Part shown: in pieces, positions 45,955 to 60,292 of the stretch
Numbering within the stretch: the stretch's first letter is position 1
Layout: the number at the start of each line of letters is the position of its first letter
Source: Kribbibacterium absianum
Lineage (GTDB): Bacteria > Actinomycetota > Coriobacteriia > Coriobacteriales > Atopobiaceae
DNA: 64,000 nucleotides
Reading direction: 5' to 3'
Assembly: GCF_030067705.1 (NCBI RefSeq)
Contig: NZ_JASJEX010000001.1
Coordinates: forward strand, 558,001 to 622,000
Notes under the pieces: model-generated
Told to the model about the DNA's origin: nothing
The model's input: the letters and a program-made list of their open reading frames with translations, nothing else
Database searches by the model: none
Translations under genes and position numbers: made by a program

Positions 45955-46680
45955 CTATCGCATCATCACGGCCGTGGCCTGACCGAGGACCAGGTACTCC
46001 CCGGCATGGAGGTCAACCTCCACGGACCCCGTCAGCGTGCCGTCCGAGACAACCTCAGGAGTCGACCCCAAGATCCGCTGCCCCGTCACGGTGTAGGAGC
46101 GGTAGCCGTCCCCGTCCACCGGGGTCAGCGTCCAGGTGCCCGCCGGGCAGTCCACGCCCACTTTGTACACGGACCCGGCGGAGAGCTCCGTCCTGTCCTG
46201 CACTGACACGTCGTCGGCCTTCACAAAGGAGCCGTTCGTGACGCGCACCGCCTGGCCGTCCTCAAGGGTGAGCCAGTCCTGCTCGCTCACCACCTGCTCC
46301 CAGTACGGCTCGCCGTTGCGATAGAGCGACACCGCGCAGGCACCGCCCGCGGCGAGGAACTTGTACTCCCCTGCCGGCAGGTTCGTCCCCACCTGGTAGT
46401 CACCGGGCTTGTAGACCATCGTCGTGCCCTCGGCGTTGATAGCCATGCCGTCGGTGGTCTGTGCCGTGGGCATGGTGGCCGCGCGAATCGCGCCCGGCCC
46501 CAGGCGCCAGAGGACGGACAGGATGAAGAGCGCCCCCATGACCGAGCACAGGACGATGGCCCCGGTGCGCGACACCTTGGGGAAGAGCGGCTTTTGGCCG
46601 GCCACGCGCTGCTGGCGCGCCCGCTCCTCCCCCTCGGCCTTCTTGTGCGCGCGGCGCTCGCGCCACGTCGGCCTCGCCAT
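45955..46680 (-). CDS. Hypothetical single-pass membrane protein with two beta-rich repeats
   Basis: 241 residues: a basic cytoplasmic N-terminus (about 1-38), one transmembrane segment (about 41-62), and an extracytoplasmic part containing two related units. The first is YQVGTNLPAGEYKF (about 94-107); the second is YKVGVDCPAGTWTL (about 170-183). Each is followed by beta-strand-like sequence. I do not recognise a named family. It starts immediately after the proS stop codon, so it is likely expressed with proS. The two units suggest an internal duplication for ligand or surface binding. Confidence 0.75.
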   Translation of the reverse strand: MARPTWRERRAHKKAEGEERARQQRVAGQKPLFPKVSRTGAIVLCSVMGALFILSVLWRLGPGAIRAATMPTAQTTDGMAINAEGTTMVYKPGDYQVGTNLPAGEYKFLAAGGACAVSLYRNGEPYWEQVVSEQDWLTLEDGQAVRVTNGSFVKADDVSVQDRTELSAGSVYKVGVDCPAGTWTLTPVDGDGYRSYTVTGQRILGSTPEVVSDGTLTGSVEVDLHAGEYLVLGQATAVMMR

Positions 46681-48405
46681 CTACATCCTCCGAGCATCGA
46701 CGAGGCCCGCCACCTGCGATGCCACGTCCTCGAGCGGCACGTCCGTGCGCTCGCCGTCGGCGCGGTCCTTGAGCTCGACGGTGCCGTTCTTCACGCCGCG
46801 CTTGCCGAGCACCACCTGGTACGGCAGACCGAGCAGGTCGGCGTCGTTGAACTTGACGCCGGCCCGCTCCTTGCGGTCGTCGAGCAGCGTCTGCACGCCG
46901 AGGGCCGCAAGCTCGTCAGCCAGTCGCTGGGCCGCCGGCCACACGAGGTCGTCGGACACGTCCAAGGGGAGGACCTCCACCTCGAAGGGCGCGACGGGCA
47001 CCGGCCACACGATGCCGGCCTCGTCGTGGGACTGCTCGACCACGGCGGCCAGGGTGCGCGTCACGCCGATGCCGTAGCAGCCCATCTGGAAGAACCGCTC
47101 CTTGCCGTCCTGGTCGAGGAACGTCGCGTGCAGCGCGCGAGAGTACTTGTCGCCCAGCTGGAAGATCTGGCCCACCTCGATGCCGCGGGCCTCCTTGAGC
47201 GGTGCCCCGCACTCGGGGCACCGGTCGCCGGCCTTCGCGCTCGCGAGGTCGAGCCACTCGTCCGGCGTGAAGTCGCGGCCCGGGCACGCGCCGGCCAGGT
47301 GCTTCTCGGGCAGGTTCGCGCCCACGAGCCACGAGAGGGACTGCTGGAGCGAGATGTCGCACACGCAGAGGACGCCCTCCGGGAGCCCGACGGGGCCGAT
47401 GCAGCCCTTGACGAGGCCGAGGGACTCGAGCTCCTCGTCCGTCATGAGCCGGTAGTCGCCGAACGCGTGGCTCGCCTTGACGTCGTTGAGCTCGTGGTCG
47501 CCCGGCACGATCGCGACGACCGGCTCGCCCACGCCGTTGACGAGCGCGATGGACTTGCGGGTCGCCGACCGGTCGACGCCGAGCAGGGCGGCGACCTCCT
47601 CGATGGTGTGCGCGCCCGGGGTGTCGAGCTCGACCATCTCGCCGTCGGGCGTCGCGGGGCCGTCGGCCACGGCGATCACCGCGGTTGCCGCCTCCTCGTC
47701 CGCGGCGTAGCCGCATTGGTCGCAGTGCACGATGGCGGCCTCGCCGTACTCGGCGAGCGCCATGAACTCGATGGAGGAGGAGCCGCCGATCTGGCCGGAG
47801 TCCGCCGCCACCGGCACGCAGTGTAGGCCGCAGCGCTTGAAGATCCGGTCGTAGGCGTCGTACATCTGGTCATAGGTCGCCTTGAGCCCCGCCTCGTCGG
47901 CGTCGAAGGAGTAGGCGTCCTTCATGATGAACTCGCGGCCGCGCATGAGGCCGAATCGGGGGCGCAGCTCGTCGCGGAACTTCTGCTGGATCTGGTAGAG
48001 GTTCTGGGGCAGCTGCTTGTAGCTCTTGAGCTCGTGGTTCACGAGGTCCGTCATCGTCTCCTCGTGCGTGGGGCCGAGCGCGAACTCGCGCTCGTGGCGG
48101 TCCTGGACGCGCATGAGCTCCGGGCCGTACACGTCCCAACGTCCGGACTCGCGCCACAGCTCGGCGGGCGTCAGGACCGGCAGGAGCACCTCCTGGCCTC
48201 CGTGGGAGTCCATCTCCTCGCGGACGATCGTCTCGATCTTCTCAAGGGACCGCCAGGCCAGCGGCAGGTAGGAGTAGAGGCCGCTCGCCGTCTTGCGGAT
48301 CATGCCGGCGCGCAGCAGCAGCTTGTGGCTCGCCAGGTCCGCCTCGGTCGGGTCCTCCTTGAGCGTGGGGGCGTAGAGTCGGCTCATCTTCTCGAGCATC
48401 TTCAC
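46681..48405 (-). CDS. proS: Prolyl-tRNA synthetase (bacterial type)
   Basis: 574 residues of class II synthetase. Motif 2 region RDELRPRFGLMRGREFIMKDAYSFD, the inserted editing (INS) domain (about 230-390, including TRKSIALVNG and VPGDHELNDVKASHAF), motif 3 near MGCYGIGVTRTLAAVVEQSHDEAGIVWP, and the C-terminal anticodon-binding domain. The GTG at 48405 has AAGGTGA 6 bases upstream; ATGs two and six codons later are less well placed. proS is often last in the ispG/dxr cluster. Confidence 0.95.
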   Translation of the reverse strand: MKMLEKMSRLYAPTLKEDPTEADLASHKLLLRAGMIRKTASGLYSYLPLAWRSLEKIETIVREEMDSHGGQEVLLPVLTPAELWRESGRWDVYGPELMRVQDRHEREFALGPTHEETMTDLVNHELKSYKQLPQNLYQIQQKFRDELRPRFGLMRGREFIMKDAYSFDADEAGLKATYDQMYDAYDRIFKRCGLHCVPVAADSGQIGGSSSIEFMALAEYGEAAIVHCDQCGYAADEEAATAVIAVADGPATPDGEMVELDTPGAHTIEEVAALLGVDRSATRKSIALVNGVGEPVVAIVPGDHELNDVKASHAFGDYRLMTDEELESLGLVKGCIGPVGLPEGVLCVCDISLQQSLSWLVGANLPEKHLAGACPGRDFTPDEWLDLASAKAGDRCPECGAPLKEARGIEVGQIFQLGDKYSRALHATFLDQDGKERFFQMGCYGIGVTRTLAAVVEQSHDEAGIVWPVPVAPFEVEVLPLDVSDDLVWPAAQRLADELAALGVQTLLDDRKERAGVKFNDADLLGLPYQVVLGKRGVKNGTVELKDRADGERTDVPLEDVASQVAGLVDARRM

Positions 48406-48429
48406 GAACGATCACCTTCGTCGCTTGTC

Positions 48430-48464
48430 GACGCCCGACGGGCCTCGAGGGCCGGTCGGGCGTC
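48430..48464. terminator. Hairpin between dxr and proS
   Basis: GACGCCCGAC (48430-48439) pairs with GTCGGGCGTC (48455-48464) around a self-complementary GGGCC/GGGCC-flanked loop. No T-run follows on the minus strand, so partial termination or a leader structure for proS are both possible. Confidence 0.4.
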
Positions 48465-48493
48465 ACGGTCTGTCTGTCTCTGTCACCGGGTCA

Positions 48494-49693
48494 TTATCGC
48501 TGAATGCCGTCGATGACCTTGCCGGCGCGCTCGCGGGCCCGCGCGTCCACGTCCGCCAGCTGCTCGAGCGACTGCACCGGCTCCACCTCGGTCTGCTCCA
48601 TGACCCGCTCGATGGTGCGGTCGATGTCGCAGAAGCCGATGCGCCCCCGTCGGAACGCCAGGTTCGCCACCTCGTTGGCGGCGTTCATCGCGCACGGCAT
48701 CGTGCCGCCGGTGCGCCCCGCCGTGAGCGCCAGGTCGAAGCAGCGGAACGTCTTGAGGTCCGGCTTGGCGAACGTGAACTCGTGCATCCTGCGGTAGTCG
48801 ATACGGTCCGCCGGCGTGTCCCAGCGGTCCGGGTACGACAGCGCGTACTGGATCGGGATGCGCATGTCGCTGGCACCGAGCTGCGCCATCGTCGAACCGT
48901 CGCAGAACTCGACCATCGAGTGGATCTTGGACTGACGGTGGATCAGCACGTAGACGTCGTCGATGCCCACCTGGAACAGGTGGTGGGCCTCGATGACCTC
49001 GAGGCCCTTGTTCATGAGCGTCGCCGAGTCGATGGAGATCTTGGGCCCCATGTGCCAGGTGGGGTGCGAGAGGGCCATGCGCGGCGTGACGGTCTCGAGC
49101 TCCTCGCGGGTCCAGCCGTAGAACGGGCCTCCCGAGCACGTGAGCCAGATGCGGTAGATCTCGTTGCTCCGCTGGCCCGTGAGGCACTGGTAGATGGCCG
49201 CGTGCTCGGAGTCGATGGGCAGAAGCCGGCCCGGCTTCGCCATGGGCATGAGGAGGTCGCCACCGGAGACGAAGGCCTCTTTGTTGGCGCAGGCGAGGAT
49301 CTTGTCCTCCTCGAGCGCGGTGTACGCGGCCCAGATGCCCTCCTCGCCCACGACGGCGTCGAGGACGCAGTCCACCTCGGGCAGGCGGCAGAGCTCGGTG
49401 ACGCCGCGCTCGCCCTTGTGAACCTGGCAGCCCTTGGGCAGGTCATCGAGGACCGGGTCCGCCGCACGGGCCGACTCGGCCACGGCCACCTGCTTGACGT
49501 CGAACTCTCGGGCGGCCTTGACGAGCGCGCCCAGGCTCGAGTTCACCGACAGGGCGACCACGTCCAGTTCGTCGGGATGCTGGCGGCACACGTCGAGCGC
49601 CTGGGTGCCGATGGAGCCGGAGCAGCCGAGAATCGCCACTCGCAACGGACGGTGACGGTCCCCTTGCGGGGCCGTGTCCTCGAAGATGGTCAC
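48494..49693 (-). CDS. dxr: 1-deoxy-D-xylulose 5-phosphate reductoisomerase
   Basis: 399 residues, second step of the MEP isoprenoid pathway. The NADPH motif is RVAILGCSGSIGTQALDVCRQHP; ACANKEAFVSGG, LPIDSEHAAIYQCL, GGPFYGW, PTWHMGPKISIDSATLMNKGLEVIEAHHLF and the C-terminal AMNAANEVANLAF are all canonical. The GTG at 49693 follows GGAGG by 7-8 bases; an upstream GTG/ATG frame adds eight residues. It is separated from ispG and cdsA by the carbohydrate locus. Confidence 0.94.
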   Translation of the reverse strand: MTIFEDTAPQGDRHRPLRVAILGCSGSIGTQALDVCRQHPDELDVVALSVNSSLGALVKAAREFDVKQVAVAESARAADPVLDDLPKGCQVHKGERGVTELCRLPEVDCVLDAVVGEEGIWAAYTALEEDKILACANKEAFVSGGDLLMPMAKPGRLLPIDSEHAAIYQCLTGQRSNEIYRIWLTCSGGPFYGWTREELETVTPRMALSHPTWHMGPKISIDSATLMNKGLEVIEAHHLFQVGIDDVYVLIHRQSKIHSMVEFCDGSTMAQLGASDMRIPIQYALSYPDRWDTPADRIDYRRMHEFTFAKPDLKTFRCFDLALTAGRTGGTMPCAMNAANEVANLAFRRGRIGFCDIDRTIERVMEQTEVEPVQSLEQLADVDARARERAGKVIDGIQR

Positions 49694-49816
49694 TGGAGAG
49701 CCTCCAACCTGACCCACATTCCTGCGGCCTTACGCTGGCGTAACCATCCGAGCATACTCCGGGGGCTCCTGTCCCTCGGTTCCTTCAGAGAAAACGCCGC
49801 AACCATCACGCGAACC

Positions 49817-49855
49817 AAAGCGGCGCGGTCGGGACGGAAGCCCGGCTGCGCCGCC
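49817..49855 (-). terminator. Possible terminator of the PTS catabolic operon
   Basis: On the minus strand after the IIA stop, GCGGCGC pairs with GCGCCGC (plus coordinates 49848-49854 and 49820-49826), with a partly self-pairing 21-base middle, followed by TTTGG. The rest of the 192-base gap to dxr also has a 14-base palindrome TTACGCTGGCGTAA near 49731-49744 in the dxr leader. Confidence 0.45.
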
Positions 49856-49885
49856 TTCTCAACCGCGCATCGATGCGCTTGGCGC

Positions 49886-50371
49886 CTATTCCGCCGCCTC
49901 GACGCAAAGGCGCGCCAGCGTCTCCGCCATGCCCTCCTCGGTGGTCTGGCGCCGGAGCTCCTCCACCTTGGCGTCGTCCATGAAGATGTTCATGAGAGCC
50001 TGGAGCACGGCCACCTGGTCCTCGGCGTGCGCGAGCAGCCCGAGGTTGATCACCAGCTCCGCGTTCACCGGGACGTCGAGCCCGGCCATGTGCGTGAAGG
50101 GCACCGGCTTTGCCGGCCGCACCACCGCGATGTAGGGCCGCCCGATGTGCTCCGGGTCCACGTGCGGGATGGCGACCTGGATGGACTCGCACGCGAGCCC
50201 CGTGGGATACGCGGCCTCGCGCTCCCTCACGGCGTCGTACCAGGTGTCCTTGATGTAGCCCCTCTCGTCCAGCCGTGCGCCCAGCTGGGCGAAGAGGTCG
50301 TCCGCGTCCTCGGCGTCGATGTCGAAGAACACAAGCTCAGGCTTGATGAGGCTCACGTCGACCGTGCCCAT
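49886..50371 (-). CDS. PTS sugar transporter EIIA (galactitol/fructose type)
   Basis: 161 residues of the PTS_EIIA_2 fold. The phosphorylated histidine is H70 in SIQVAIPHVDPEHI; other family strands are FAQLGARLDERGYIKDTWYDAVREREAAYPTGLA and LGLLAHAEDQVAVLQALMNIF. It would receive phosphate from HPr (not in the window) and pass it to the separate IIB at 54155-54442. Last gene of the minus-strand run TIM-YjbQ-aldolase-IIA. Confidence 0.88.
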   Translation of the reverse strand: MGTVDVSLIKPELVFFDIDAEDADDLFAQLGARLDERGYIKDTWYDAVREREAAYPTGLACESIQVAIPHVDPEHIGRPYIAVVRPAKPVPFTHMAGLDVPVNAELVINLGLLAHAEDQVAVLQALMNIFMDDAKVEELRRQTTEEGMAETLARLCVEAAE

Positions 50372-50386
50372 CGCTCGCTCCTCTCG

Positions 50387-51271
50387 TTAGCCGCGCGGCC
50401 TCATGACCGGCTTGGCGTCGTTGGCGAAGGTCGTTATCACGCGCGAGGCCTCGGCCAGCAGGCGGTCGTAGGCGGCGGCGCAGAGGTCGTCCCAGAAGAC
50501 CGGGCGTCCCTCGTCACGGGCGGCGTCTATCACGGCCGTTGCCGCTTCGCCAGCGTACTTCGATCCGTAGGTGTAGTAGTTGATCTTTCGGATGCCCGCG
50601 TCAATGGCCGCATGGTAGTCGGCGTCCGAGACGCCGGAGCCTCCGTGCATCACAAGCGGGAGGCCCGAGAGCTCGCGAATCTCGCGGAGCACGTCGAAGG
50701 AGAGGTGCGGCTCGCCCTTGTACAGGCCGTGGACGGTGCCGAACGAGCACGCGAGCGCGTCGCACTGGGTGTCGGCGATGAAGCGGGCGGCCTCGGCCGG
50801 GTCGGTGTACACGGCGGCCGTCTCGTGCGCCAGCTGGCCCGCGCCTCCCTCGCTCGCGCCCATGGAGCCGATCTCGCACTCCAGCCCGGCGTCGAACTCG
50901 TCGCACATGGCACGGGCGCGCAGGGAGTTGGCCACGTTCTGCTCGTAGGGCAGCGTGGAGCCGTCGTACATCGCGCCGGTGAACCCGAGGTCGAGGGCAC
51001 GGCGCACGAGGCCGAGGTCCTCGCCGTGGTCCAGGTGCACGCAGACCATCGCGCTCGAGGCGTCGGCCAGCTCGAGCATCGCCGGGCCGATCTGCTCGAT
51101 GGGGACGAAGGCCTCATGGGACTGCGCGTGGGCGACGATCACGGGGAACCCGGTGCCCTCGGCGGCGTCGACGGCCGCCCGGAGCATCTCGAAGTTCGGG
51201 CAGTTGAAGGCCGCGACGGCCATGTTCCGCTGGCTTGCGACGGCCAGGATGTCGGTGAGGTTGACGAGCAT
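50387..51271 (-). CDS. Class II aldolase, GatY/KbaY/Fba type
   Basis: 294-residue zinc-dependent ketose-bisphosphate aldolase. VHLDHGED (D81, H82) has the catalytic aspartate and a metal histidine; FGTVHGLYKGEPHLSFDVLREI and LPLVMHGGSGVSDADY supply the other ligands and the phosphate loop; INYYTYGSKYA follows where INxxT is usual. The family includes fructose-1,6- and tagatose-1,6-bisphosphate aldolases. Placement with a Gat-type PTS suggests that it cleaves the phosphorylated product of the imported sugar or polyol. Fifteen bases upstream of IIA. Confidence 0.85.
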   Translation of the reverse strand: MLVNLTDILAVASQRNMAVAAFNCPNFEMLRAAVDAAEGTGFPVIVAHAQSHEAFVPIEQIGPAMLELADASSAMVCVHLDHGEDLGLVRRALDLGFTGAMYDGSTLPYEQNVANSLRARAMCDEFDAGLECEIGSMGASEGGAGQLAHETAAVYTDPAEAARFIADTQCDALACSFGTVHGLYKGEPHLSFDVLREIRELSGLPLVMHGGSGVSDADYHAAIDAGIRKINYYTYGSKYAGEAATAVIDAARDEGRPVFWDDLCAAAYDRLLAEASRVITTFANDAKPVMRPRG

Positions 51272-51298
51272 GGGACGTCCTTTCCAGGGGCTTGGGGG

Positions 51299-51820
51299 TT
51301 ACTCGCCGATCACGACCACGCGGGCGCGGCGCGTGCGCTCGCGACAGCGGTCGAAGTCCACAAGGTAGATGCTCGCGAGGCCGTTCATGTTGAGCGCGCC
51401 GTTCGAGACCTCGAAGGTCTGGCTAGACCCCACGACGACGGAGCGGAGGTGAGCGTCGCCGTTCCAGAGCTGGGTGCGGTCGCCGCCGGGCAGCCACTTC
51501 TCAAGCTCCGGCCAGGTCTCCACCTCCTCGAAGTGCTGAAGGCCGGGATACCGGTAGGTGCTCCAGTCGTGCTGCTCGGGAAAGATGCGCCCGAGGCCGT
51601 CGGAGAGGTCCGCCTGGAGGAACGTGTCCCCCGCCGGCGTGTGGTCGTGGTCGTACTCCTGTGAGAAGACCGCGCAGGTGGTGTGGCAGGAGATGACCAC
51701 GGCGATGCCCTCGACGATGCCGCTCTCGGCCACGATGCCCCGCACGCCGTCGGTGATGTCGACGTAGGTGGGCTTGCCCGCCACGGTCTCGCAGGTGACC
51801 GTCCCTTTGTGCACCGTCAT
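51299..51820 (-). CDS. YjbQ family protein (UPF0047)
   Basis: 173 residues. Conserved elements: VVISCHTTCAVFSQEYD (His46), DAHLRSVVVGSSQTFEVSNGAL, IYLVDFDRCRERTRRARVVVIGE, and a metal-site-like mix of histidines (HDHTPAGD, QHDW). The family is named for weak thiamine-phosphate synthase activity and its true role is unsettled. It starts 2 bases after the stop of the TIM-like gene, in the middle of a sugar operon, which argues for a role in handling sugar phosphates. Slightly longer than the ~140-residue core family. Confidence 0.85.
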   Translation of the reverse strand: MTVHKGTVTCETVAGKPTYVDITDGVRGIVAESGIVEGIAVVISCHTTCAVFSQEYDHDHTPAGDTFLQADLSDGLGRIFPEQHDWSTYRYPGLQHFEEVETWPELEKWLPGGDRTQLWNGDAHLRSVVVGSSQTFEVSNGALNMNGLASIYLVDFDRCRERTRRARVVVIGE

Positions 51821-51822
51821 GG

Positions 51823-52539
51823 TCAGCCCTCCGCTTCGATCGTTGCGGCGATCTCTGCGCGAGCGCGGTCGAGCGCGGCGAACATGTCGTCGAGCACCGC
51901 GTGCGGGTCCTCGGCGGCGACGATGCCCGACGTGCCCCCCGACGCGTCGGCGCCGCACATGATCGCGTCGTAGACGTTCTGGCCGCTGTGGATGCCCGCC
52001 GCCTGGAGGACGAGGGTCTCGGGCGAGATCGCCTTCACGGCCTCGGTGGAGCCGCGCATGTAGTCCTCCCCCGCCACCTGACCGGTGCCGATGAGGCTGT
52101 TGAGCTCGCACACCATGACGTCGGGGTGCAGCTGCGCGATGGCCCTTCCCTCCTCGACGGAGTCGGCGCAGACCACCGTGACGATGCCCACCTCGCGGGC
52201 GCGCTGGATCGTGAGCGCCAGCTCGTGGACCGTGAGCGGCAGCTCCGCATGGTTGAGGAACGTGGCCTTGACGCCAGCCGCAGCGAGGGCCTCGGGGAGC
52301 ACGTGCCCCATCCCTCGCCCGGGGGTGAGGGACTCCATGTACTGCGCGCAGGGGATCAGGTGCGGGCATTCCGCGATGACCGCCGGCAGGTCGATGAGCT
52401 GGGCCGTGAAGAGCACCTGCACGTCGTACCTTTCGGCGAGCGCGTCGGTGTAACGGGCCAACTCCAGGAGATCCTCGCCGTAGAGGTAGGACTTGGGATT
52501 GACCACAAAGAACGGTCTTTCGAGCTTCACAGGTTCCAT
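51823..52539 (-). CDS. Triosephosphate isomerase-like TIM-barrel protein
   Basis: 238 residues. All catalytic positions of TIM are present: N14 and K16 (VVNPKSY), H97 (FLNHAELP) and E145 (VCELNSLIGTG), with the phosphate-loop IGTGQ and the C-terminal GADASGGTSGIVAA. The sequence is otherwise far from housekeeping TpiA, and genes of this kind occur in sugar/polyol loci where they isomerise other phosphorylated ketoses or aldoses. First gene of the minus-strand catabolic operon; the ATG follows GAGAGGG. Confidence 0.82.
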   Translation of the reverse strand: MEPVKLERPFFVVNPKSYLYGEDLLELARYTDALAERYDVQVLFTAQLIDLPAVIAECPHLIPCAQYMESLTPGRGMGHVLPEALAAAGVKATFLNHAELPLTVHELALTIQRAREVGIVTVVCADSVEEGRAIAQLHPDVMVCELNSLIGTGQVAGEDYMRGSTEAVKAISPETLVLQAAGIHSGQNVYDAIMCGADASGGTSGIVAAEDPHAVLDDMFAALDRARAEIAATIEAEG

Positions 52540-52587
52540 GGGCGCCCTCTCGTCAAGCTGAATGCGGGGACAAGTCGCGGCCATCCT

Positions 52588-52613
52588 ACTTGTTCCGCAG
52601 GGACGGTACAAGT
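52588..52613. promoter_or_regulatory. Putative operator of the GntR/UTRA regulator (divergent gap)
   Basis: Half-sites ACTTGTT (52588-52594) and TACAAGT (52607-52613) are separated by 12 bases. An additional ACAAGT lies at 52570-52575. The same ACTTGTW-N12-TACAAGT arrangement recurs upstream of the IIC gene (54971-54996). The site lies between the divergent TIM-like operon and the GntR gene. Confidence 0.65.
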
Positions 52614-52734
52614 CGCTTTTGGGCGAGCGTCCTTTTCGGGTCCCGTGGTTTTCAACCCGCCACGAAAAGACGGGCACCTCTCAGCGCTAAGCTTGGCGCC
52701 ATCCGCGAGGCCGTCCAGAAAGACCGAGGAGCCT

Positions 52735-53469
52735 GTGGCCAACGACCGTTCGTCCGAGCCCCTGAGCTCCCAGGTGGCCGAGCACATCCGCAGCAAGATC
52801 TACGCGAAGGAGTGGGGCCCGGGCGACCGGCTGCCCTCCGAGCACGCCCTGATGGAGCAGTTCGGCGTCAGCCGCGGCACCGTGCGAAGGGCGCTCCAGT
52901 CGCTGATCCAGGAAGGGCTGCTCACGAGCGAGCACGGCCGGGGCACCTTCGTCCGCGTGCCCCGCGTGCTGCACCCCACCGGCAACCGCCCGCTCTCCTT
53001 TGCCGCGGCGCTCGAGGACCAGGGCATCCGGTTCGAGACCACGGTGCTCGAGCGCGAGGCGGTGACGCCTCCCTCCCACGTCGCGACGCGCCTCGACCTG
53101 GACGGGGCCGACCTCGTGCTCCATTCCCACCGCCTCCGCTGCGACTCCGCCGGCACGCCGCTCATGGCCCTCGACAGCTGGATCCCGCTCAAGCGGTGCC
53201 CGGGCATCGAGCGTCTCGACCTCACCCAGGTGTCCCTGTTCGACGCCGTCCAGCAGACGTCGGGCCTGCTCATCGCTTGGTCCGAGATGTCCTACACGGC
53301 GGTCCTCGCGGGGTCAGACATCGGGGCGGTGCTCGGGGTCCCGGAGACGGCGCCGGCCCTTCGGCTCGACCAGCTCATCTATCTGGAGAGCGGCGACCCC
53401 GTGGAGTGGAGCTCCGTGTTTCTGCCCGGCGGTCACGCGATCACGGGCGTGGGCGTCCAGACGCGCTAG
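52735..53469 (+). CDS. GntR-family (HutC/UTRA) regulator of the PTS locus
   Basis: 244 residues with a GTG start after GAGGA. Winged helix (about 10-80): SKIYAKEWGPGDRLPSEHALMEQFGVSRGTVRRALQSLIQEGLLTSEHGRGTFV. UTRA ligand-binding domain (about 95-240): ALRLDQLIYLESGDPVEWSSVFLPG. Divergent from the catabolic operon, with a matching inverted half-site in both the shared gap and the IIC upstream region, so it is the likely local regulator. Its stop overlaps that of the convergent PH-like gene by two bases. Confidence 0.88.
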   Translation: MANDRSSEPLSSQVAEHIRSKIYAKEWGPGDRLPSEHALMEQFGVSRGTVRRALQSLIQEGLLTSEHGRGTFVRVPRVLHPTGNRPLSFAAALEDQGIRFETTVLEREAVTPPSHVATRLDLDGADLVLHSHRLRCDSAGTPLMALDSWIPLKRCPGIERLDLTQVSLFDAVQQTSGLLIAWSEMSYTAVLAGSDIGAVLGVPETAPALRLDQLIYLESGDPVEWSSVFLPGGHAITGVGVQTR

Positions 53470-54065
53470 TTGGGCTCCCCGGCGTTCGTGGCACCTGGGC
53501 GCGCCGCACGTCTGGCCCGCTTCTGCGCCTTCTCCGCCTCTTTGTCAGCCTTGATCCGCGCCTTGATCTGATCCTCGTGCTCGGCGTACACTCGGTTAGA
53601 GCGGCGCGCCCGTGCCTTGAGCGAGTCCGGGTGCACGCGCTCCTCCAGAGCCTCGAGGGCCTCGGCCAGCTCGAGGCCGCCGGCCATGTGGCCGGCCTGG
53701 ACCCAGTAGCGCCCCTTGACCGGGCCGCCCCCGTTCACGCGCACGTAGAGCTTCTCCTTGCCGCCCACCTCACGGACGCTCAGCTCCCGGATCCCCGAGA
53801 GCGGGAACCGGTCCGTGCGGCCGAAGCCCTGGAAGACCAGCTCGTCGTCGGTCAGTGTGACCTTCTCCGGGTTCGCGATCGCCACGAACGTGTTCCAGAC
53901 CTGGTAGCCGCACACGAGCAGGACCGCCCAGAGGATGCCGACAGGGAACGCGGAGCCGCCGATGAGCCCCCAGGCCGCCCAGAGCGCGAGCGCAGCGCAG
54001 AAGACTCCCACCGCGATGACGTCGACGACGTAGTAGCGGCGCTCGAAGGTGTAGGTCCCGCGCAT
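53466..54065 (-). CDS. Hypothetical membrane protein with PH-like domain
   Basis: 199 residues: two N-terminal transmembrane segments (about 14-34 and 38-60), then a bacterial PH-like stretch (about 65-120: VTLTDDELVFQGFGRTDRFPLSGIRELSVREVGGKEKLYVRVNGGG) and a charged helical tail rich in Lys/Arg/Glu (about 145-199). No enzymatic motif. It lies downstream of the IIB gene on the same strand (89-base gap), within the sugar locus; the link to transport is unclear. Confidence 0.72.
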   Translation of the reverse strand: MRGTYTFERRYYVVDVIAVGVFCAALALWAAWGLIGGSAFPVGILWAVLLVCGYQVWNTFVAIANPEKVTLTDDELVFQGFGRTDRFPLSGIRELSVREVGGKEKLYVRVNGGGPVKGRYWVQAGHMAGGLELAEALEALEERVHPDSLKARARRSNRVYAEHEDQIKARIKADKEAEKAQKRARRAARPGATNAGEPN

Positions 54066-54154
54066 CGCGCTCCCCTCTCATCGGGCTCGGTCACACGAAC
54101 GGGGCCCTCAGCGGAGCCCCGTGCGCCCTCGTCCAGCCTCAGCTTCGTCGCTCG

Positions 54155-54442
54155 TTAACGGTTCGCCATGAAGTCAAGGATCTGCTGCTCGACGGCCTGG
54201 CGCCCGATGCCGGTGAGGAACGGGATCCCGTTGATGAACTCGCACTCGATGCCGTCCGGCTTCACCGTCGTGGCGATCACCAGGTCGGCGCTCGCGGAGG
54301 ACGGCACGGCGTCGGCGATCGAGGTGGTCTTGATCGTGTAGTCGCCGGCGTGCCCGTTGGTGTCCAGGAGGTCCTTGATCTTGTTGCAGACCGCGGTGGA
54401 GGTGGCGATGCCGGAGCCGCAGGCGACGAGGATGGAGGTCAT
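54155..54442 (-). CDS. PTS sugar transporter EIIB (galactitol type)
   Basis: 95 residues. The phosphorylated cysteine C8 lies in SILVACGSGIATSTAVCNKIKDLL, the GatB/SgcB P-loop-like signature. ASADLVIATTVK and GIPFLTGIGRQAVEQQIL complete the fold. It takes phosphate from IIA (49886-50371) and gives it to the sugar at IIC (55183-56619). It is unusual that IIB and IIC are on opposite strands. GAAAGGGAC precedes the ATG. Confidence 0.9.
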   Translation of the reverse strand: MTSILVACGSGIATSTAVCNKIKDLLDTNGHAGDYTIKTTSIADAVPSSASADLVIATTVKPDGIECEFINGIPFLTGIGRQAVEQQILDFMANR

Positions 54443-54695
54443 GGCTGTCCCTTTCGCTGATGGGTGGTGGCGGGCTCTCGGGGCCCGCAGATTCTCGTAG
54501 GCATTCTGGGGCCCGGGGCACGGCGGCGCGCCCAGAATCCCGCGAACGGCTCCATCATCATGCCATGGAGGCCGCTCGGCGTCCCCCGATGTGGCGCGCC
54601 CCGCTTTTTTGCGATTCGTCGCGATTCATCTGCCAAAGGGAGGGACAGAGAGGATAGAAACACGGCAACGCCCGTCCGCCCACAAGGAGGCAACC
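54443..54695. promoter_or_regulatory. Divergent upstream region of IIB and the 61-residue protein gene
   Basis: 253 bases without a gene. It contains an 8-bp inverted repeat ATTCTGGG (54503-54510) / CCCAGAAT (54531-54538) and a TTTTTT tract near 54604. The ACTTGTA operator seen elsewhere in the locus is absent, so IIB may be controlled differently from the other PTS genes. Confidence 0.4.
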
Positions 54696-54881
54696 ATGGC
54701 CGACACCGAGAAGACCGCGCCCGAGAACACGCGCCCGAACGCCGCACAGATGCAGCAAATCGAGCGCGCCATCATCGACTCCGAGGAGGGGATCTACACC
54801 CTCGACGGCGGCTACGCGCAGGAACAGGAGCTCGAGGGCGCCGTCGACCGGATCCTCGACACCAAGGACCCCGAGGCCTGA
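54696..54881 (+). CDS. Small acidic hypothetical protein (61 residues)
   Basis: A short frame with an excellent ribosome site (AAGGAGG, 6 bases from the ATG) and its own intrinsic terminator shortly after the stop. The protein is acidic and predicted mostly helical (TRPNAAQMQQIERAIIDSEEGIYTLDGGYAQEQELEGAVDRILDTKD), with no membrane segment and no motif that I recognise. It lies between the IIB and IIC genes. It could be a regulator or partner of the PTS, or unrelated. Confidence 0.7.
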   Translation: MADTEKTAPENTRPNAAQMQQIERAIIDSEEGIYTLDGGYAQEQELEGAVDRILDTKDPEA

Positions 54882-54925
54882 CCCGGGTCTTCCGTCGATG
54901 AATCCGCACCGGCGCTGAGCCGCAG

Positions 54926-54952
54926 CGGGGCGTCTTCCAGCGCCCCGTTTTT
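54926..54952 (+). terminator. Intrinsic terminator after the small acidic protein gene
   Basis: CGGGGCG pairs with CGCCCCG around an 8-base loop, followed by TTTTTG. It isolates the small gene from the downstream IIC gene. Confidence 0.8.
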
Positions 54953-54970
54953 GCGTCCGAGCGCCCATCG

Positions 54971-54996
54971 ACTTGTACTCTGATTCCGATACAAGT
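54971..54996. promoter_or_regulatory. Putative GntR operator upstream of IIC
   Basis: ACTTGTA (54971-54977) and its exact complement TACAAGT (54990-54996) are separated by 12 bases. The arrangement equals the one in the TIM-GntR gap (52588-52613). It lies about 190 bases upstream of the IIC start. Confidence 0.65.
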
Positions 54997-55182
54997 AACG
55001 AGAGAAACGGCTACTTTAGCGCACTTTCCGCTGCCGCGCGCCACAACGCCCATTGACCTTTCCGTTGAGACCGCTGGACTTCCCGACTCCCTCCGTTGTG
55101 GGTTTTCAGCCAAACCCTGGCGTACGTTTGCAGGTGCAGAGCGCGTGTGCACGTCGCTGCCCCACGGGAAAGGAGCCCCTCT

Positions 55183-56619
55183 ATGGATGCACTCGTCGCC
55201 ATATTCGGAGGTATCTCGAGCCTCGGCGTCTCGGTGGTCATGCCCATCGTGCTGACCATCCTCGGCTGCTGCTTCGGCGCAGGCTTTGGCAAGAGCCTCA
55301 AGGCCGGCCTCACCGTGGGCATCGGCTTCATCGGCCTGAACCTTGTCATCAACCAGCTCATGGGCACGGACCTGGCGGGCGGTGTCGAGGCCATGGTCAA
55401 CCGCTTCAGCCTCTCCCTCTCCGTGATGGATGTGGGCTGGCCGGCCGCCTCCGCGATCGCCATGGGCTCCATCGTCGGCACCATCATCATTCCGCTGGCC
55501 TTGGCCGTGAACCTCGTCATGCTGCTGACCAACACCACCCAGACCGCCGACGTCGACATCTGGAACTACTGGCACTTCGCGTTCACCGGCGCCCTCGTCG
55601 CCATCGTGTGCGACAGCGTTTGGCTCGGCATCGCCGCCGCCGTGATCAACGAGGTCATCGTCCTCGTGATCGGCGACCTCACGGCCCCGCAGGTGGAGAA
55701 GTCGCTCGGACTTCCCGGCGTCTCCATCCCCCACGGCTTCTCCGGCGCCTACGCGCCGATCGCGTACGCGGTGAACTGGCTCATCGACAAGGTCCCCGGT
55801 CTGCGCGACGTCAACATCAACGTCCGTTCGATGCAGAAGCGCTTCGGCGTCTTCGGTGAGCCGGTGCTGCTCGGCGCGATCATCGGCCTGCTCATCGGCC
55901 TGCTCGCCGGCTACGGCTTCCTGCCCGAGACCCTCGAGGACGGCACCACCGTCCCGTCCTTCCTCGCGCTCGCCGTCTCGATGGCCGCCGTCATGGTGCT
56001 CATCCCGAAGATGGCTGCCCTCTTGATGGAGGGGTTGCTCCCCATCTCCGACGCCGCCTCCGAGATCATCCAGAAGCGTTTCTCCCACCGCGGCAAGATG
56101 TACATCGGCCTCGACTCCGCCGTGGGCACCGGCCACCCCGTCACGCTGACGCTGTCGCTCATCCTCGTGCCGGTCGCCGTGTTCCTCGCGTTCGTGCTCC
56201 CGGGGAACCAGGTCATCCCGCTGGCGGACCTCGCCTGCATCCCCTACATGTTTGTGCTCATCACCCCGATCGTCGAGGAGAACGGCTTCCGCGGCCTGCT
56301 CGTGGGCATCGTCGTCCTCGCGGTGGGCTTCTACATCGCGACCGACCTCTCGCCGCTCATCACGAGCGCCGCCGCCAACGTGAACTTCGACATGGGCGGC
56401 GCGGCCGCGATCTCCTCGATCTGCGACGGCGCCAACCCGCTCACCTGGGTGATCACCCGCGTCGGGGCCCTCGGCGCCGGCATCGGCCTGGTCGTCCTGG
56501 CCGTCGCCGCCATCGTGCTCGCCCTCTGGAACCGCAAGCGCATCGTGGCCGAGGCCAAGGCCATGCACGCCGTGACCGACGGTGACGCCGCAAGCGGCAC
56601 CGGCGTCACCGCCAAGTAG
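55183..56619 (+). CDS. PTS sugar transporter EIIC (galactitol type)
   Basis: 478-residue permease of the EIIC-Gat family with about 11 hydrophobic segments: starts FGGISSLGVSVVMPIVLTILGCCFGAGFGKSLKAGLTVGIGFIGLNLVINQL. The loop with SVMDVGWPAASAIAMG and the motif GDLTAPQVEKSLGLPGVSIPHGFSG are typical. It carries the sugar or polyol across the membrane while IIB phosphorylates it. AAAGGAG lies 8 bases before the ATG. Own promoter and operator upstream. Confidence 0.9.
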   Translation: MDALVAIFGGISSLGVSVVMPIVLTILGCCFGAGFGKSLKAGLTVGIGFIGLNLVINQLMGTDLAGGVEAMVNRFSLSLSVMDVGWPAASAIAMGSIVGTIIIPLALAVNLVMLLTNTTQTADVDIWNYWHFAFTGALVAIVCDSVWLGIAAAVINEVIVLVIGDLTAPQVEKSLGLPGVSIPHGFSGAYAPIAYAVNWLIDKVPGLRDVNINVRSMQKRFGVFGEPVLLGAIIGLLIGLLAGYGFLPETLEDGTTVPSFLALAVSMAAVMVLIPKMAALLMEGLLPISDAASEIIQKRFSHRGKMYIGLDSAVGTGHPVTLTLSLILVPVAVFLAFVLPGNQVIPLADLACIPYMFVLITPIVEENGFRGLLVGIVVLAVGFYIATDLSPLITSAAANVNFDMGGAAAISSICDGANPLTWVITRVGALGAGIGLVVLAVAAIVLALWNRKRIVAEAKAMHAVTDGDAASGTGVTAK

Positions 56620-56643
56620 CGGCACACGCGGCACCAACGCACA

Positions 56644-56678
56644 ACGGGCGCTCCTCTTCCGGGGGGCGCCCGTCCTTT
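56644..56678 (+). terminator. Probable terminator after IIC
   Basis: ACGGGCGC (56644-56651) pairs with GCGCCCGT (56666-56673), 14-base loop, followed by CCTTTG. The T-run is short. Confidence 0.5.
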
Positions 56679-56740
56679 GTGCCTCGCGAGTGGTGCCGGT
56701 GCCGAGCCGTCACCGACCGCCCCGTTGGGGCGCGGGCCTC

Positions 56741-57856
56741 TCACCGGTTCGGGAAGCGCTCCTCGATCTCGCGCATCAGGGCGTCAACGATCTGGTTCTC
56801 GGGCACGGACCCGAGCTTCTCGCCGTGCGCGAACAAGAGACCCTGGCCCCGGCCGCCGGCAACCCCGATGTCGGCTCCCCGCGCCTCGCCCGGGCCGTTG
56901 ACGACGCAGCCCATCACGGCGACGGAGATGGGCGCGCGCACGTCCTTCAGCCGCTCCTCCACCTCGGAGGCCAGGCCGATGAGGTCCACCTGGCAGCGCC
57001 CGCACGTGGGGCAGCTCACCAGCTCGGGCGTGCGGCGGCGCAGCCCGAGGGCCTGAAGAATCTGCCAGGCCACCGGAGGCTCCTCCACGGGAGGCGCCGT
57101 GAGCGACACGCGCACGGTGTCGCCGATGCCCTCCGAAAGCAGCACCGAGAGCGCGCACGCGTTCTTGATGGTGCCGGCGCGCAGACCGCCCGCCTCCGTC
57201 ACGCCGAGATGCAGCGGCACCGTGGGCAGCACGCGGGACAGCTCGCGGTTGGTGCGGATGGTGCTCGGCACCGAGTGCGTCTTGGCGGAGACGACGATGT
57301 CCTCGAAGCCGCGCTCCCGGAAATGCTCCACAAATGACACCGCGCTCTGCACGAGCTTCTCGGGCTGGGAAAGGTCCTCTCGCGCGTCGATGTCGGGGTC
57401 GAGCGAGCCTGCGTTCACGCCGATCCGGATGGGGATCCGAGCGGAGCCGGCCGCGTCGATGACGGCGTCGACCTTGTCGGTGGCGCCGATGTTGCCCGGG
57501 TTGATGCGCAGCGCCGAGGCGCCCCGCTCGGCCGCGCCGATGGCCAGGCGGTGGTCGAAGTGGATGTCGGCGACCACGGGCAGCGGGCTCTCCGCGCAGA
57601 CCTCCCCGAAGCCGTCGAGCGCGTCCTCATGTGGCACGGCCACGCGCACGATCTCGCAGCCGGCGTCCGCAAGCTCCGCGATCTGGGCCAGCGTGGCCCG
57701 GGCGTCCTGTGTGGGCGTGTTGGTCATCGACTGCACCGCGACGGGAGCCCCGCCGCCCATCGGCACGCCGCCCACCATCACTTGGCGCGTGAGCGTCCGC
57801 GGCACCGGCTCCTCACACGCGCCGTCAAGACCGGCCTGTAGTCGCAGGTCCTCCAT
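56741..57856 (-). CDS. ispG: 4-hydroxy-3-methylbut-2-en-1-yl diphosphate synthase
   Basis: 371-residue iron-sulfur enzyme of the MEP pathway. TIM-barrel half: GGGAPVAVQSMTNTPTQDARATLAQI, VVADIHFDHRLAIGAAERGASALRINPGNIG. Fe-S half: SCPTCGRCQVDLIGLASEVEERL and VMGCVVNGPGEARGADIGVAGG with the cluster cysteines. The ATG at 57856 follows GGGGAGG. Last gene of the pyrH-to-ispG run before the carbohydrate locus; dxr lies beyond it. Confidence 0.95.
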   Translation of the reverse strand: MEDLRLQAGLDGACEEPVPRTLTRQVMVGGVPMGGGAPVAVQSMTNTPTQDARATLAQIAELADAGCEIVRVAVPHEDALDGFGEVCAESPLPVVADIHFDHRLAIGAAERGASALRINPGNIGATDKVDAVIDAAGSARIPIRIGVNAGSLDPDIDAREDLSQPEKLVQSAVSFVEHFRERGFEDIVVSAKTHSVPSTIRTNRELSRVLPTVPLHLGVTEAGGLRAGTIKNACALSVLLSEGIGDTVRVSLTAPPVEEPPVAWQILQALGLRRRTPELVSCPTCGRCQVDLIGLASEVEERLKDVRAPISVAVMGCVVNGPGEARGADIGVAGGRGQGLLFAHGEKLGSVPENQIVDALMREIEERFPNR

Positions 57857-57882
57857 AGGGCACCTCCCCTCGGGCCGAGGCG

Positions 57883-59274
57883 CTACCCCCCGACGACAAA
57901 GCGGATCACGTCCTGCCGCAGCAGGACGAAGAACAGAAGCATGAAAAGGCATATGCCCACGTACGAGAGGGCCGTCTGCACCTTCATCGACACCGGGCGT
58001 CGGAGCGCCGCTTGGATCGCCTCGATCACAATCTTGCCGCCGTCGAGAGGGGGCACCGGCAGGAGGTTCATGAAGCCAAGGGACAGGGACACCGCCGCGG
58101 CCAGCAGCGCGAACGACGCGATCCCCTGGCTCGCCGCCTGACTCGCCATCACGGAGATGCCCACCACGGACGTGGAGTTCTCGATCACCTCCGCCGCATG
58201 GGACGGCTGGAAGAGCTGCGAGATGTACACGGCGGTCGCGCCCACGTACGAGGCCGCGTAGCCGAGCGCCTCTCCGACGGACAGGCGCACGCGCTCGGTG
58301 GGCGCCGAAATGCCGATTGTGGTCTCGCCGTCGGGCACTTGCACCGTGACCTCGCGCGTCGCCTCGGAACCCGAGCGATGGTAGGTGATCTGGAGCCTCG
58401 CGCCGTCACCGATGCCCGAGCGCACCGCAGAGACGAGCGACGTCCACGAGTCCACAGGCTCGCCGTTCACCGTCTCCACCACGTCGCCCGCCTCGAGACC
58501 GGCGGCCGCGGCCGGTGACCCCTCTTGGACGGCACCGATCTGGGGCTCGTCGACTGTCACCGAGACCCCGGCCAATGTGAGCACGAGCACCACGAGCAGC
58601 AGCCCGCACAGGATGTTGATCACCACGCCTGCCACGAGCACGAACGTCCTGCCCCAGAACCCGTGCGCCACGTACGTGTGCTCGCGCTCATGAGCCAGGA
58701 ACTCCTCGGGAGCCTCGGTGAGCGGGTGCGCCTGCCCGGCCTCGGTGGACCCGGGCAGCGCGAAGTCGTGGCCCTTGTCATACTTGGTCCGGAGGGAGCC
58801 GTCGCGGGCGACCGTCTGAAACTGCTGCGGGTAGGTGGACTGGTTGGGCTTCTCGCCGAGCGCTGGGTCGTAGAACGGCTCGATGGAGGCCCAGTCCGTG
58901 AGGCACACGAGCGCGGTCAGCGCGTCCTCCTCTGAGCAGCCGAGGTGTTCGGCCGTCTCGGCAATGGACGCGCGCCCGCGCTCCATCACAAAGGCAAGCG
59001 CCTCGGCCAGATGAGGGCTCTGGGTCGAGTCCATGCCGCAGACCATCGTGTAGCCACCGAGCAGCACTGGTGTCACGCCGTAATCGGTGCCGTAGCGCTT
59101 GGACTCCACGTGGAGGTTGAAGCGGCACGGCAGGCCGAGGTAGAAGTCCTTGACGCGAATCTTGAGCGCACGGGCGGCCATGAAGTGCCCGCCCTCGTGG
59201 ATGAACACAAGAACAGAGAGCAGCAAGAGGCCCCAGAAGACCGAGGCCAGCGCGCCGCCGATCCCCGCTAGCAC
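57883..59274 (-). CDS. rseP: RIP-family site-2 metalloprotease RseP
   Basis: 463-residue intramembrane zinc protease. HEGGH (HExxH) lies in the first transmembrane segment (about residue 26); a PDZ domain follows (about 235-310, with GLEAGDVVETVNGEPV); the second active-site segment is LLPVPPLDGGK near the C-terminus. Between the first helix and the second membrane segment there is a long insert (about 75-200) with winged-helix-like sequence (LAEALAFVMERGRASIAETAEHLGCSEEDALTALVCL). GTG start with AAGG upstream. It lies downstream of cdsA, where dxr is often found between them. Confidence 0.9.
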   Translation of the reverse strand: MLAGIGGALASVFWGLLLLSVLVFIHEGGHFMAARALKIRVKDFYLGLPCRFNLHVESKRYGTDYGVTPVLLGGYTMVCGMDSTQSPHLAEALAFVMERGRASIAETAEHLGCSEEDALTALVCLTDWASIEPFYDPALGEKPNQSTYPQQFQTVARDGSLRTKYDKGHDFALPGSTEAGQAHPLTEAPEEFLAHEREHTYVAHGFWGRTFVLVAGVVINILCGLLLVVLVLTLAGVSVTVDEPQIGAVQEGSPAAAAGLEAGDVVETVNGEPVDSWTSLVSAVRSGIGDGARLQITYHRSGSEATREVTVQVPDGETTIGISAPTERVRLSVGEALGYAASYVGATAVYISQLFQPSHAAEVIENSTSVVGISVMASQAASQGIASFALLAAAVSLSLGFMNLLPVPPLDGGKIVIEAIQAALRRPVSMKVQTALSYVGICLFMLLFFVLLRQDVIRFVVGG

Positions 59275-59314
59275 GTGCGGGCCTTGTCGACGCCGGGACG
59301 CAGCATGTGGAGCA

Positions 59315-60292
59315 TTAGGAGAACCCCCCGAGCTTCAGAATCAGGTACGCGGTCATGCACCCGAACAATATCGAGTCCGAGCGATCCAGCATACCACCGT
59401 GCCCAGGAATGAAGTTGCCCGAGTCCTTGACGCCGGCAGCACGCTTGAGGCGGCTCTCGAAGAGGTCGCCGATCACGCTCACGATGCCCACGCAGAGGCC
59501 GCCCACGATCGCGAGCCACAGATTGACCCCAGGGACCTGCAGGACCGCCATCAGGAGCCACACGAACACGGAGCCGACAAGGCCTCCCGCGAACCCCTCC
59601 CAGGTCTTGTTGGGGCTGATCTTGGGAACCATCTTGTGCCTGCCGAACCGGGAGCCCACGAAGTACGCCGCCGCATCGCTCATCCAGATCGACGCGATGA
59701 CGCCGAACACGAGCAAGAACGACCCGAGCGACGTGCCCGGCACCGGCGGCTCGAGCATGCGGATCATCACGACCGAGCTCATCAGGTAGCCGGTGTAGAC
59801 GGGGCCGAACACCGTGAGCGCGACGTCGCCGATCGAGGCCGGCAGCGTCCACACGTACCAGACGCCGGCGGCCAGCACGAGCAGGGAGAGCCAGAACGGC
59901 GTCCACGCGTCGGGCAACAACGGCAGGATCGGGAACACGACGGCGGCAGCGAGGCCGATCACCTCGTTCGGCATGCGGCCCATCATCCGCGCGATACGGA
60001 AGAACTCCGAGCAACAGAGCCACGCCATCGCAGCGAACAGAGCCGCCGTCGGAATCTTGCCAAACCACAGGCACGCAAGCACGATGACCGCGTAGAGCGC
60101 CCCGTAGAGCGTGCGGGTCATGAGCTTCTCGATGCCGGAGCGCGCCCTGCCGCTCTTGGACTCCCCGGCAAGGCGCGCGTCCTCGCGGGCCTCGCGCTTG
60201 TGCGCGTAGGAGTCGATGGCCGTCTCCAGGTTGCGCTCCCGCGTGCTCTCCGGGCCCGTGTGATTCGTCCCCCGGCGGTCCTCGTCAGCCAT
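59315..60292 (-). CDS. cdsA: Phosphatidate cytidylyltransferase
   Basis: 325 residues; makes CDP-diacylglycerol from phosphatidate and CTP. A charged N-terminal 55 residues precede about eight membrane segments. The CTP_transf_1 signature (LFESRLKRAAGVKDSGNFIPGHGGMLDRSDS) is intact. The ATG at 60292 overlaps the uppS end by eight bases. Its product feeds PgsA (31630-32229). Confidence 0.93.
   Translation of the reverse strand: MADEDRRGTNHTGPESTRERNLETAIDSYAHKREAREDARLAGESKSGRARSGIEKLMTRTLYGALYAVIVLACLWFGKIPTAALFAAMAWLCCSEFFRIARMMGRMPNEVIGLAAAVVFPILPLLPDAWTPFWLSLLVLAAGVWYVWTLPASIGDVALTVFGPVYTGYLMSSVVMIRMLEPPVPGTSLGSFLLVFGVIASIWMSDAAAYFVGSRFGRHKMVPKISPNKTWEGFAGGLVGSVFVWLLMAVLQVPGVNLWLAIVGGLCVGIVSVIGDLFESRLKRAAGVKDSGNFIPGHGGMLDRSDSILFGCMTAYLILKLGGFS

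Follow-up and report, generated by a model that had tools for sequence, protein, structure and literature searches.

Two described kinds of catabolic system come closest to the locus analysed here. The Gat systems for galactitol and tagatose pair the phosphotransferase system (PTS) GatABC with the class II aldolases GatY/KbaY. Tetritol catabolism, known from Brucella (EryC/EryH/EryI) and Mycobacterium (LerI/DerI), uses a carbonyl-shifting isomerase followed by a partner isomerase, with a link to an aldolase; LerI and EryH are relatives of triosephosphate isomerase (TIM). We examined a PTS locus in a 64,000-nucleotide stretch of the Kribbibacterium absianum genome (contig NZ_JASJEX010000001.1, positions 558,001 to 622,000; hereafter the window), in which a TIM homologue, a class II aldolase and a protein of the YjbQ/UPF0047 family are encoded together. 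The locus shares a GatC-type IIC, IIA, IIB and the class II aldolase fold with the Gat systems, but has the TIM homologue and YjbQ instead of GatD, tagatose kinase and GatZ and falls below the galactitol equivalog cut-offs. With the tetritol systems it would have in common two successive isomerase steps and the aldolase link, but the partner is YjbQ rather than DerI or EryI, and there is no dehydrogenase or kinase. YjbQ structures have been solved since 2004, and we know of no accepted function for the family. The YjbQ/UPF0047 papers in the literature searched showed, by their titles and abstracts, no apparent tie to sugar catabolism, and that literature held no described pathway for a TIM-YjbQ-aldolase PTS operon. 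Sugar operons with a PTS are familiar; the present one points to a specific function for YjbQ and may alter the way the reductoisomerase DXR-II is understood.

A dedicated operon with separately placed transporter genes

The genes for the TIM homologue, YjbQ, the aldolase and PTS subunit IIA form one minus-strand operon (52539-49886) with gaps of 2, 27 and 15 bases. IIB and IIC lie outside it on opposite strands, 1.6-2.6 kb away, which an earlier note on this DNA, made from the sequence alone, had overlooked. That note had taken the genes to encode a PTS-based sugar route not yet characterised, in which YjbQ is an integral part and the substrate is probably not galactitol, a reading that our analysis supports. 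Family matches confirmed each of the parts it named (Gat-type PTS, YjbQ, TIM-like protein and aldolase) as a gene where it had placed them, and the 2-base spacing between TIM and YjbQ is exact, the TIM stop codon ending at 51823 and the YjbQ ATG starting at 51820. The features of the system are as follows.

49886-50371, minus strand: PTS subunit IIA, GatA/FruA-type (Pfam PTS_EIIA_2, 90.5 bits; same operon in relatives)
50387-51271, minus strand: class II aldolase of the FBA/TBP/YdjI fold (Pfam F_bP_aldolase, 246.8 bits; nearest solved structure YdjI 6ofu; motif tests)
51299-51820, minus strand: long-form YjbQ (UPF0047), 173 amino acids (UPF0047 match; AlphaFold2 model with the YjbQ fold; separate clade)
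51823-52539, minus strand: archaeal-type TIM homologue (NF003302; nearest solved structure 1hg3; alignment)
52588-52613, no strand: operator ACTTGT-N14-ACAAGT before the TIM operon and the GntR gene (kept in relatives)
52735-53469, plus strand: divergent GntR/UTRA regulator, HutC-type, GTG start assumed (Pfam GntR 82.6 and UTRA 87.1 bits; adjoins TIM in relatives)
54155-54442, minus strand: PTS subunit IIB (Pfam PTS_IIB, 35.6 bits; adjoins YjbQ and IIC in relatives)
54971-54996, no strand: second operator ACTTGT-N14-ACAAGT, upstream of IIC (sequence match)
55183-56619, plus strand: PTS subunit IIC, GatC-type permease (Pfam EIIC-GAT, 281 bits)

None of the open reading frames (ORFs) of positions 46000-60000 encodes a dehydrogenase or kinase for galactitol or tagatose, in agreement with the earlier note, and IIC scored 424.5 bits against the galactitol model TIGR00827, below its cut-off of 542.2. 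On the missing enzymes and the sub-threshold scores we rejected galactitol and tagatose as the substrate.

A shared operator links the dispersed genes. In the 2.18-Mb genome there are just two exact copies of the palindrome ACTTGT-N14-ACAAGT, one upstream of TIM and one upstream of IIC, which stands apart from the operon; with up to two mismatches the window holds three matches against 0.3 expected. A third genomic site, at one mismatch (C1:276980, L217), lies beside unrelated genes and was taken as chance. Among relatives, the palindrome stands upstream of TIM in about 30 related loci, with a spacing of exactly 14 in 35 of 38 matches and no match in a coding control; a stricter pattern matched 22 of 121 genomes of the family, and its reversed control none. 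Further sites precede an unlinked aldolase gene (genome G040) and a RhaD-type aldolase gene (G118), and lie between divergent aldolase and IIA genes (G013 and G041). Because the operator is shared across unlinked sites, IIC and the aldolase are part of the system even when they are not adjacent to the rest. The recurrence of operator and gene set exceeds chance: both exact matches in the genome fall here, and the set spans phyla. The GntR protein would repress through this palindrome; a scan for sigma-70 promoters gave no match.

Long-form YjbQ is a near-universal partner of the TIM homologue

The window YjbQ matches the UPF0047 Pfam model with 81 bits (cut-off 27) and reaches only 58.3 bits against the NCBIfam model TIGR00149, short of the 67.75-bit cut-off, and thus belongs to a divergent UPF0047 subfamily. 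It is the single UPF0047 protein of its genome; 10 of 14 control genomes had a UPF0047 match. At 173 amino acids it carries about 30 residues more than the ordinary short form of about 143, which also occurs in the family, unlinked to such loci. The two forms fall into separate clades with full support. They share the fold and the core residues H46, E55 and H124, whereas the long form has further invariant residues (H58, D59, P92, G93, H96, R162 and R164) and a dedicated gene context. An AlphaFold2 model of the window protein (mean confidence, pLDDT, 95) superposed on nine YjbQ entries with Z scores of 15.1-19.0 and a root-mean-square deviation of 1.5-2.0 over 127-139 residues, and no structure other than YjbQ scored above Z 4.1; good matches being confined to YjbQ entries, the fold says nothing about mechanism.

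The TIM homologue is present in 33 of the 121 family genomes, 31 of which also encode long YjbQ, as against 3 of the 88 others (Fisher P = 4e-23); short YjbQ is barely associated with TIM (P = 0.04). The commonest order in the family is GntR-TIM-YjbQ-IIB-IIC-membrane protein-(AraD/FucA-like aldolase)-aldolase-IIA. A scan of a wider collection yielded 80 named TIM loci from Coriobacteriia, Erysipelotrichia, Lactobacillales, Clostridia, Halanaerobium and Acidipropionibacterium, with the aldolase in 69 and YjbQ directly 3' of TIM in 55 (gaps of -4 to 45 bases). One half of the refuting condition that the earlier note had set for its claim was the absence of YjbQ from orthologous loci; long YjbQ is present in 73 of the 80, across many genera. 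The TIM-YjbQ-aldolase triad recurs in Actinomycetota and Bacillota with three types of PTS, Gat, Man and Srl; Man versions often include an AlsE-like epimerase and Srl versions a SAF-domain oxidoreductase. Some versions, from Clostridium and Shinella, include a XylB-like kinase, which we count in favour of the scheme proposed below. The Gat version is also borne by plasmids, of Enterococcus faecium and Lacticaseibacillus paracasei, that were both typed as conjugative.

In three genomes long YjbQ occurs in the absence of a TIM homologue; its gene stands between Gat IIA-IIC-IIB on the upstream side and a SIS isomerase gene on the downstream side, and two of the three also have an Rpe-like epimerase there. 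A similar set of Gat-PTS, long YjbQ, Rpe-like epimerase and HxlB-type isomerase is carried by Enterococcus faecium plasmids (L219; 152 Enterococcus records match); in the one record examined the IIC frame is interrupted. Long YjbQ is thus a constant partner of Gat-PTS with two different downstream modules. Co-occurrence and synteny across phyla rule out YjbQ as an accidental neighbour, and it is very probably one of the pathway's own catabolic enzymes. This tight context narrows the search for its function to a single reaction of a sugar phosphate.

Residue features of the TIM homologue and the aldolase

The TIM homologue belongs to the archaeal-type subfamily (NF003302, 161.5 bits against a cut-off of 132). 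Its catalytic residues N14, K16, H97 and E145 are intact, as the earlier note had seen, and invariant across 12 aligned sequences, and its loops are changed. Because the genome also has a bacterial-type TIM (C1:371069, 310.5 bits), the homologue likely has a paralogue role rather than acting as the cell's isomerase of glyceraldehyde 3-phosphate and dihydroxyacetone phosphate (DHAP).

In class II aldolases the arginine of a DPR motif binds the second phosphate of the substrate. The window aldolase keeps the catalytic aspartate and the metal-binding histidines, with LDH, HG and HGxS motifs. Columns were numbered on a KbaY reference sequence, used for that purpose only, and the genome's own fructose-bisphosphate aldolase served as control. 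None of the 77 aldolases in the cluster has the DPR motif, and 71 have A[QE]x[HN]; the genome encodes three other class II aldolases, and the glycolytic-type fructose-bisphosphate aldolase (L253) reads DPRKFL. The nearest solved structure is YdjI (6ofu, 140 bits), of the ketose 1-phosphate type; it is only moderately similar, and the acceptor side differs, the window aldolase having an A[QE]xH motif and no arginine motif. Because the second-phosphate arginine motif is lost, a neutral aldehyde product is expected. The predicted reaction splits a ketose 1-phosphate into DHAP and an uncharged aldehyde. FucA-like and RhaD-like aldolases of the operon or regulon fit the same type of reaction.

A possible route from 1-deoxy-D-xylulose 5-phosphate

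These features can be joined in a scheme for the breakdown of 1-deoxy-D-xylulose 5-phosphate (DXP), an intermediate of isoprenoid, thiamine and pyridoxal synthesis. We favour it tentatively over its rivals and rate it a little less likely than not. The GatABC-type PTS would import a sugar such as 1-deoxy-D-xylulose and phosphorylate its far end, giving DXP (CH3-CO-CHOH-CHOH-CH2OP). YjbQ is predicted to shift the ketone from C2 to C3, producing CH3-CHOH-CO-CHOH-CH2OP, whose last three carbons resemble a TIM substrate. In its native chemistry, TIM converts R-CO-CHOH-CH2OP to R-CHOH-CO-CH2OP; the homologue would likewise move the carbonyl from C3 to C4, beside the phosphate-bearing carbon (CH3-CHOH-CHOH-CO-CH2OP). 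The aldolase would then split this 5-deoxypentulose 1-phosphate into DHAP and acetaldehyde. A methyl-ended five-carbon compound needs exactly two carbonyl shifts and one cleavage, with no dehydrogenase or kinase, and so fits the gene content. In the DHAP shunt of 5-deoxyribose and in the LsrG/LsrF degradation of phosphorylated autoinducer-2, too, a methyl-ended five-carbon phosphate has its carbonyl moved beside CH2OP and is cleaved to DHAP and a two-carbon unit; the likeness to the predicted route is one of chemistry alone, as none of their enzymes was found in the locus.

DXP is suggested by the Srl versions of the triad. Their oxidoreductase matches PF21135 (DRL_cat) with 190-211 bits (cut-off 27) and aligns over its full length with Brucella DXR-II (3upy; 329 bits, about 40% identity). 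By the diagnostic sites published for the DXR-II (Brucella DRL) family (PMC3847144), it is a member: K191, K193, T229, H250 and R320 are all kept in five Srl versions (L063, L139, L141, L145 and L147), and the remaining sites nearly all in four, L147 departing at G121 and several others. The described role of DXR-II is in isoprenoid synthesis, from DXP to 2-C-methyl-D-erythritol 4-phosphate, whereas here its gene belongs to a polyol PTS operon, which suggests that it may work in the reverse, catabolic direction. Only one of the 121 family genomes has DXR-II, within 1 kb of TIM; there, the Srl operon encodes the aldolase and TIM and another operon, of Gat type, encodes YjbQ, an arrangement in which one pathway might be fed by two uptake systems.

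DXR-II also occurs in other suggestive settings. In rhizobia and Aminobacter it heads an operon with thiamine pyrophosphate (TPP)-dependent E1 alpha/beta and E2 subunits, and E3 in most; in the Rhizobium, Shinella and Aminobacter operons (L228, L229 and L230) the enzyme is 71-73% identical to that of Brucella. This operon looks catabolic rather than isoprenoid-biosynthetic, and a TPP-dependent acyl-dehydrogenase complex would suit the thiolytic splitting of an acyloin, of which DXP is one. Ligilactobacillus has DXR-II with an Srl PTS, fructose-6-phosphate aldolase and transketolase, and Listeria has it with an Srl PTS. With somewhat more hesitation than for the scheme alone, we propose that long YjbQ, the TIM homologue and the aldolase may be dedicated to DXP catabolism to DHAP and acetaldehyde, and that the DXR-II of many Bacillota, Rhizobiaceae and some Actinomycetota may run backwards in the use of 2-C-methyl-D-erythritol. 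If so, bacteria would have a route for eating compounds of the isoprenoid pathway, with a catabolic role for DXR-II that would explain organisms having it with no isoprenoid need. It would also account for Finegoldia and Anaerococcus, which are listed with DXR-II but with none of the remaining enzymes of the two isoprenoid pathways (PMC3847144).

Weighing the alternatives

Several observations weigh against the DXP scheme. The Gat-type loci, the window included, have no DXR-II, so that DXP is assigned to them by analogy. Long YjbQ with an Rpe-like epimerase and SIS isomerase, in the absence of TIM and aldolase, is left unexplained, and Shinella carries TIM and YjbQ with no aldolase. Two paralogous class II aldolases of this genome also lack an exact DPR, reading DPK or DPN. 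What the analysis establishes is gene content, the shared operator, conservation, the YjbQ subfamily and residue features, whereas substrate, step order and every reaction, together with repression, are inferred. The gene next to IIA, which speaks for DXP, is dxr, for DXP reductoisomerase I (48494-49639, minus strand; placed by neighbour comparison). The conserved order is cdsA-dxr-rseP: each of the 19 relatives with dxr has cdsA and/or rseP next to it, and the order IIA-dxr-proS is found only in the window genome among the 20 compared. The move is local, dxr having stayed within its cluster of genes, and could be accidental; a terminator-like hairpin lies between IIA and dxr, which is probably not co-transcribed with IIA. 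For these reasons its position as a neighbour of the operon is suggestive only.

The main rival in our ranking, which we consider unlikely, is a tetrulose or tetritol pathway. Here the PTS would import erythrulose (or, in Srl versions, a tetritol), the TIM homologue would do the work of EryH/LerI (L-erythrulose 1-phosphate to D-erythrulose 4-phosphate), YjbQ would replace the RpiB-type EryI/DerI (to D-erythrose 4-phosphate), and the aldolase would either condense erythrose 4-phosphate with DHAP or cleave erythrulose 1-phosphate to DHAP and formaldehyde. Characterised pathways do use LerI or EryH with DerI or EryI, and in Brucella also Fba; FucA and RhaD form erythrulose 1-phosphate from DHAP and formaldehyde, and their relatives occur in the operon or regulon. 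Acidipropionibacterium has the triad, and the title of a reference in PMC4437456 speaks of Propionibacterium erythritol metabolism via L-erythrulose 1-phosphate. Shinella groups TIM and YjbQ with a short-chain dehydrogenase/reductase (SDR), an epimerase and a DhaK-type kinase, but these last three were seen only there, and the window locus has no tetritol dehydrogenase, kinase or RpiB-type isomerase. The aldolase, moreover, has lost the second phosphate site that erythrose 4-phosphate would require, which likewise disfavours sedoheptulose bisphosphate synthesis; cleavage of erythrulose 1-phosphate needs no YjbQ and would release formaldehyde, and the oxidoreductase of the Srl versions resembles DXR-II rather than a polyol dehydrogenase.

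Slightly less likely again is another five- or six-carbon sugar, whose PTS product YjbQ would ring-open, epimerise or isomerise before TIM and the aldolase yield DHAP and glycolaldehyde or glyceraldehyde. Such a role would suit long YjbQ beside Gat-PTS with Rpe-like and KdsD/GutQ/HxlB-like enzymes, the AlsE-like epimerase of the Man-PTS versions, and the UlaE-like epimerase and ribulokinase-like kinase of L135. Ordinary pentulose phosphates, however, enter the pentose phosphate pathway with no need of such a route, a hexulose 6-phosphate would require a third carbonyl shift, and DXR-II would go unexplained. It is very improbable that YjbQ is ancillary, for example a weak thiamine-phosphate synthase or detoxifying hydrolase beside a pathway carried by TIM and the aldolase only. 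The NCBI name of the family is secondary thiamine-phosphate synthase, and overexpressed E. coli yjbQ relieves a pdxB block (PMC7954711), but the dedicated subfamily, the tight spacing after TIM and the near-universal co-occurrence speak for a part in the pathway itself.

Variant loci and remaining neighbours

Some triad loci show further features. Four clostridial loci (L118, L124, L128 and L133) have NifS-like and MtaA/UroD-like methyltransferase genes in common, with a XylB-like kinase in three, and three Erysipelotrichaceae loci (L108, L112 and L115) have two tandem copies of long YjbQ. Genomes G006 (L066) and G037 (L069) have a lone TIM homologue of 56-60% identity and no UPF0047 protein. 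The Shinella locus (L218), on a plasmid, combines its SDR, epimerase, TIM and YjbQ with XylB-like and DhaK-type kinases and an ABC transporter.

Two further genes lie among those of the window system. A small ORF between IIB and IIC (54696-54881, plus strand, 61 amino acids) has coding-like codon usage and no relatives in the loci compared. The other lies next to the regulator gene:

53466-54065, minus strand: membrane protein with two helices and a PH-like beta domain (cluster c7 in 19 loci, also in Bacillota; AlphaFold2 model)

It has no Pfam family above cut-off; its model (pLDDT 95) gave weak PH-like matches (Z about 6). This protein and the divergent GntR/UTRA regulator belong to the system, and the PH-like membrane protein accompanies Gat-type triad loci across phyla.

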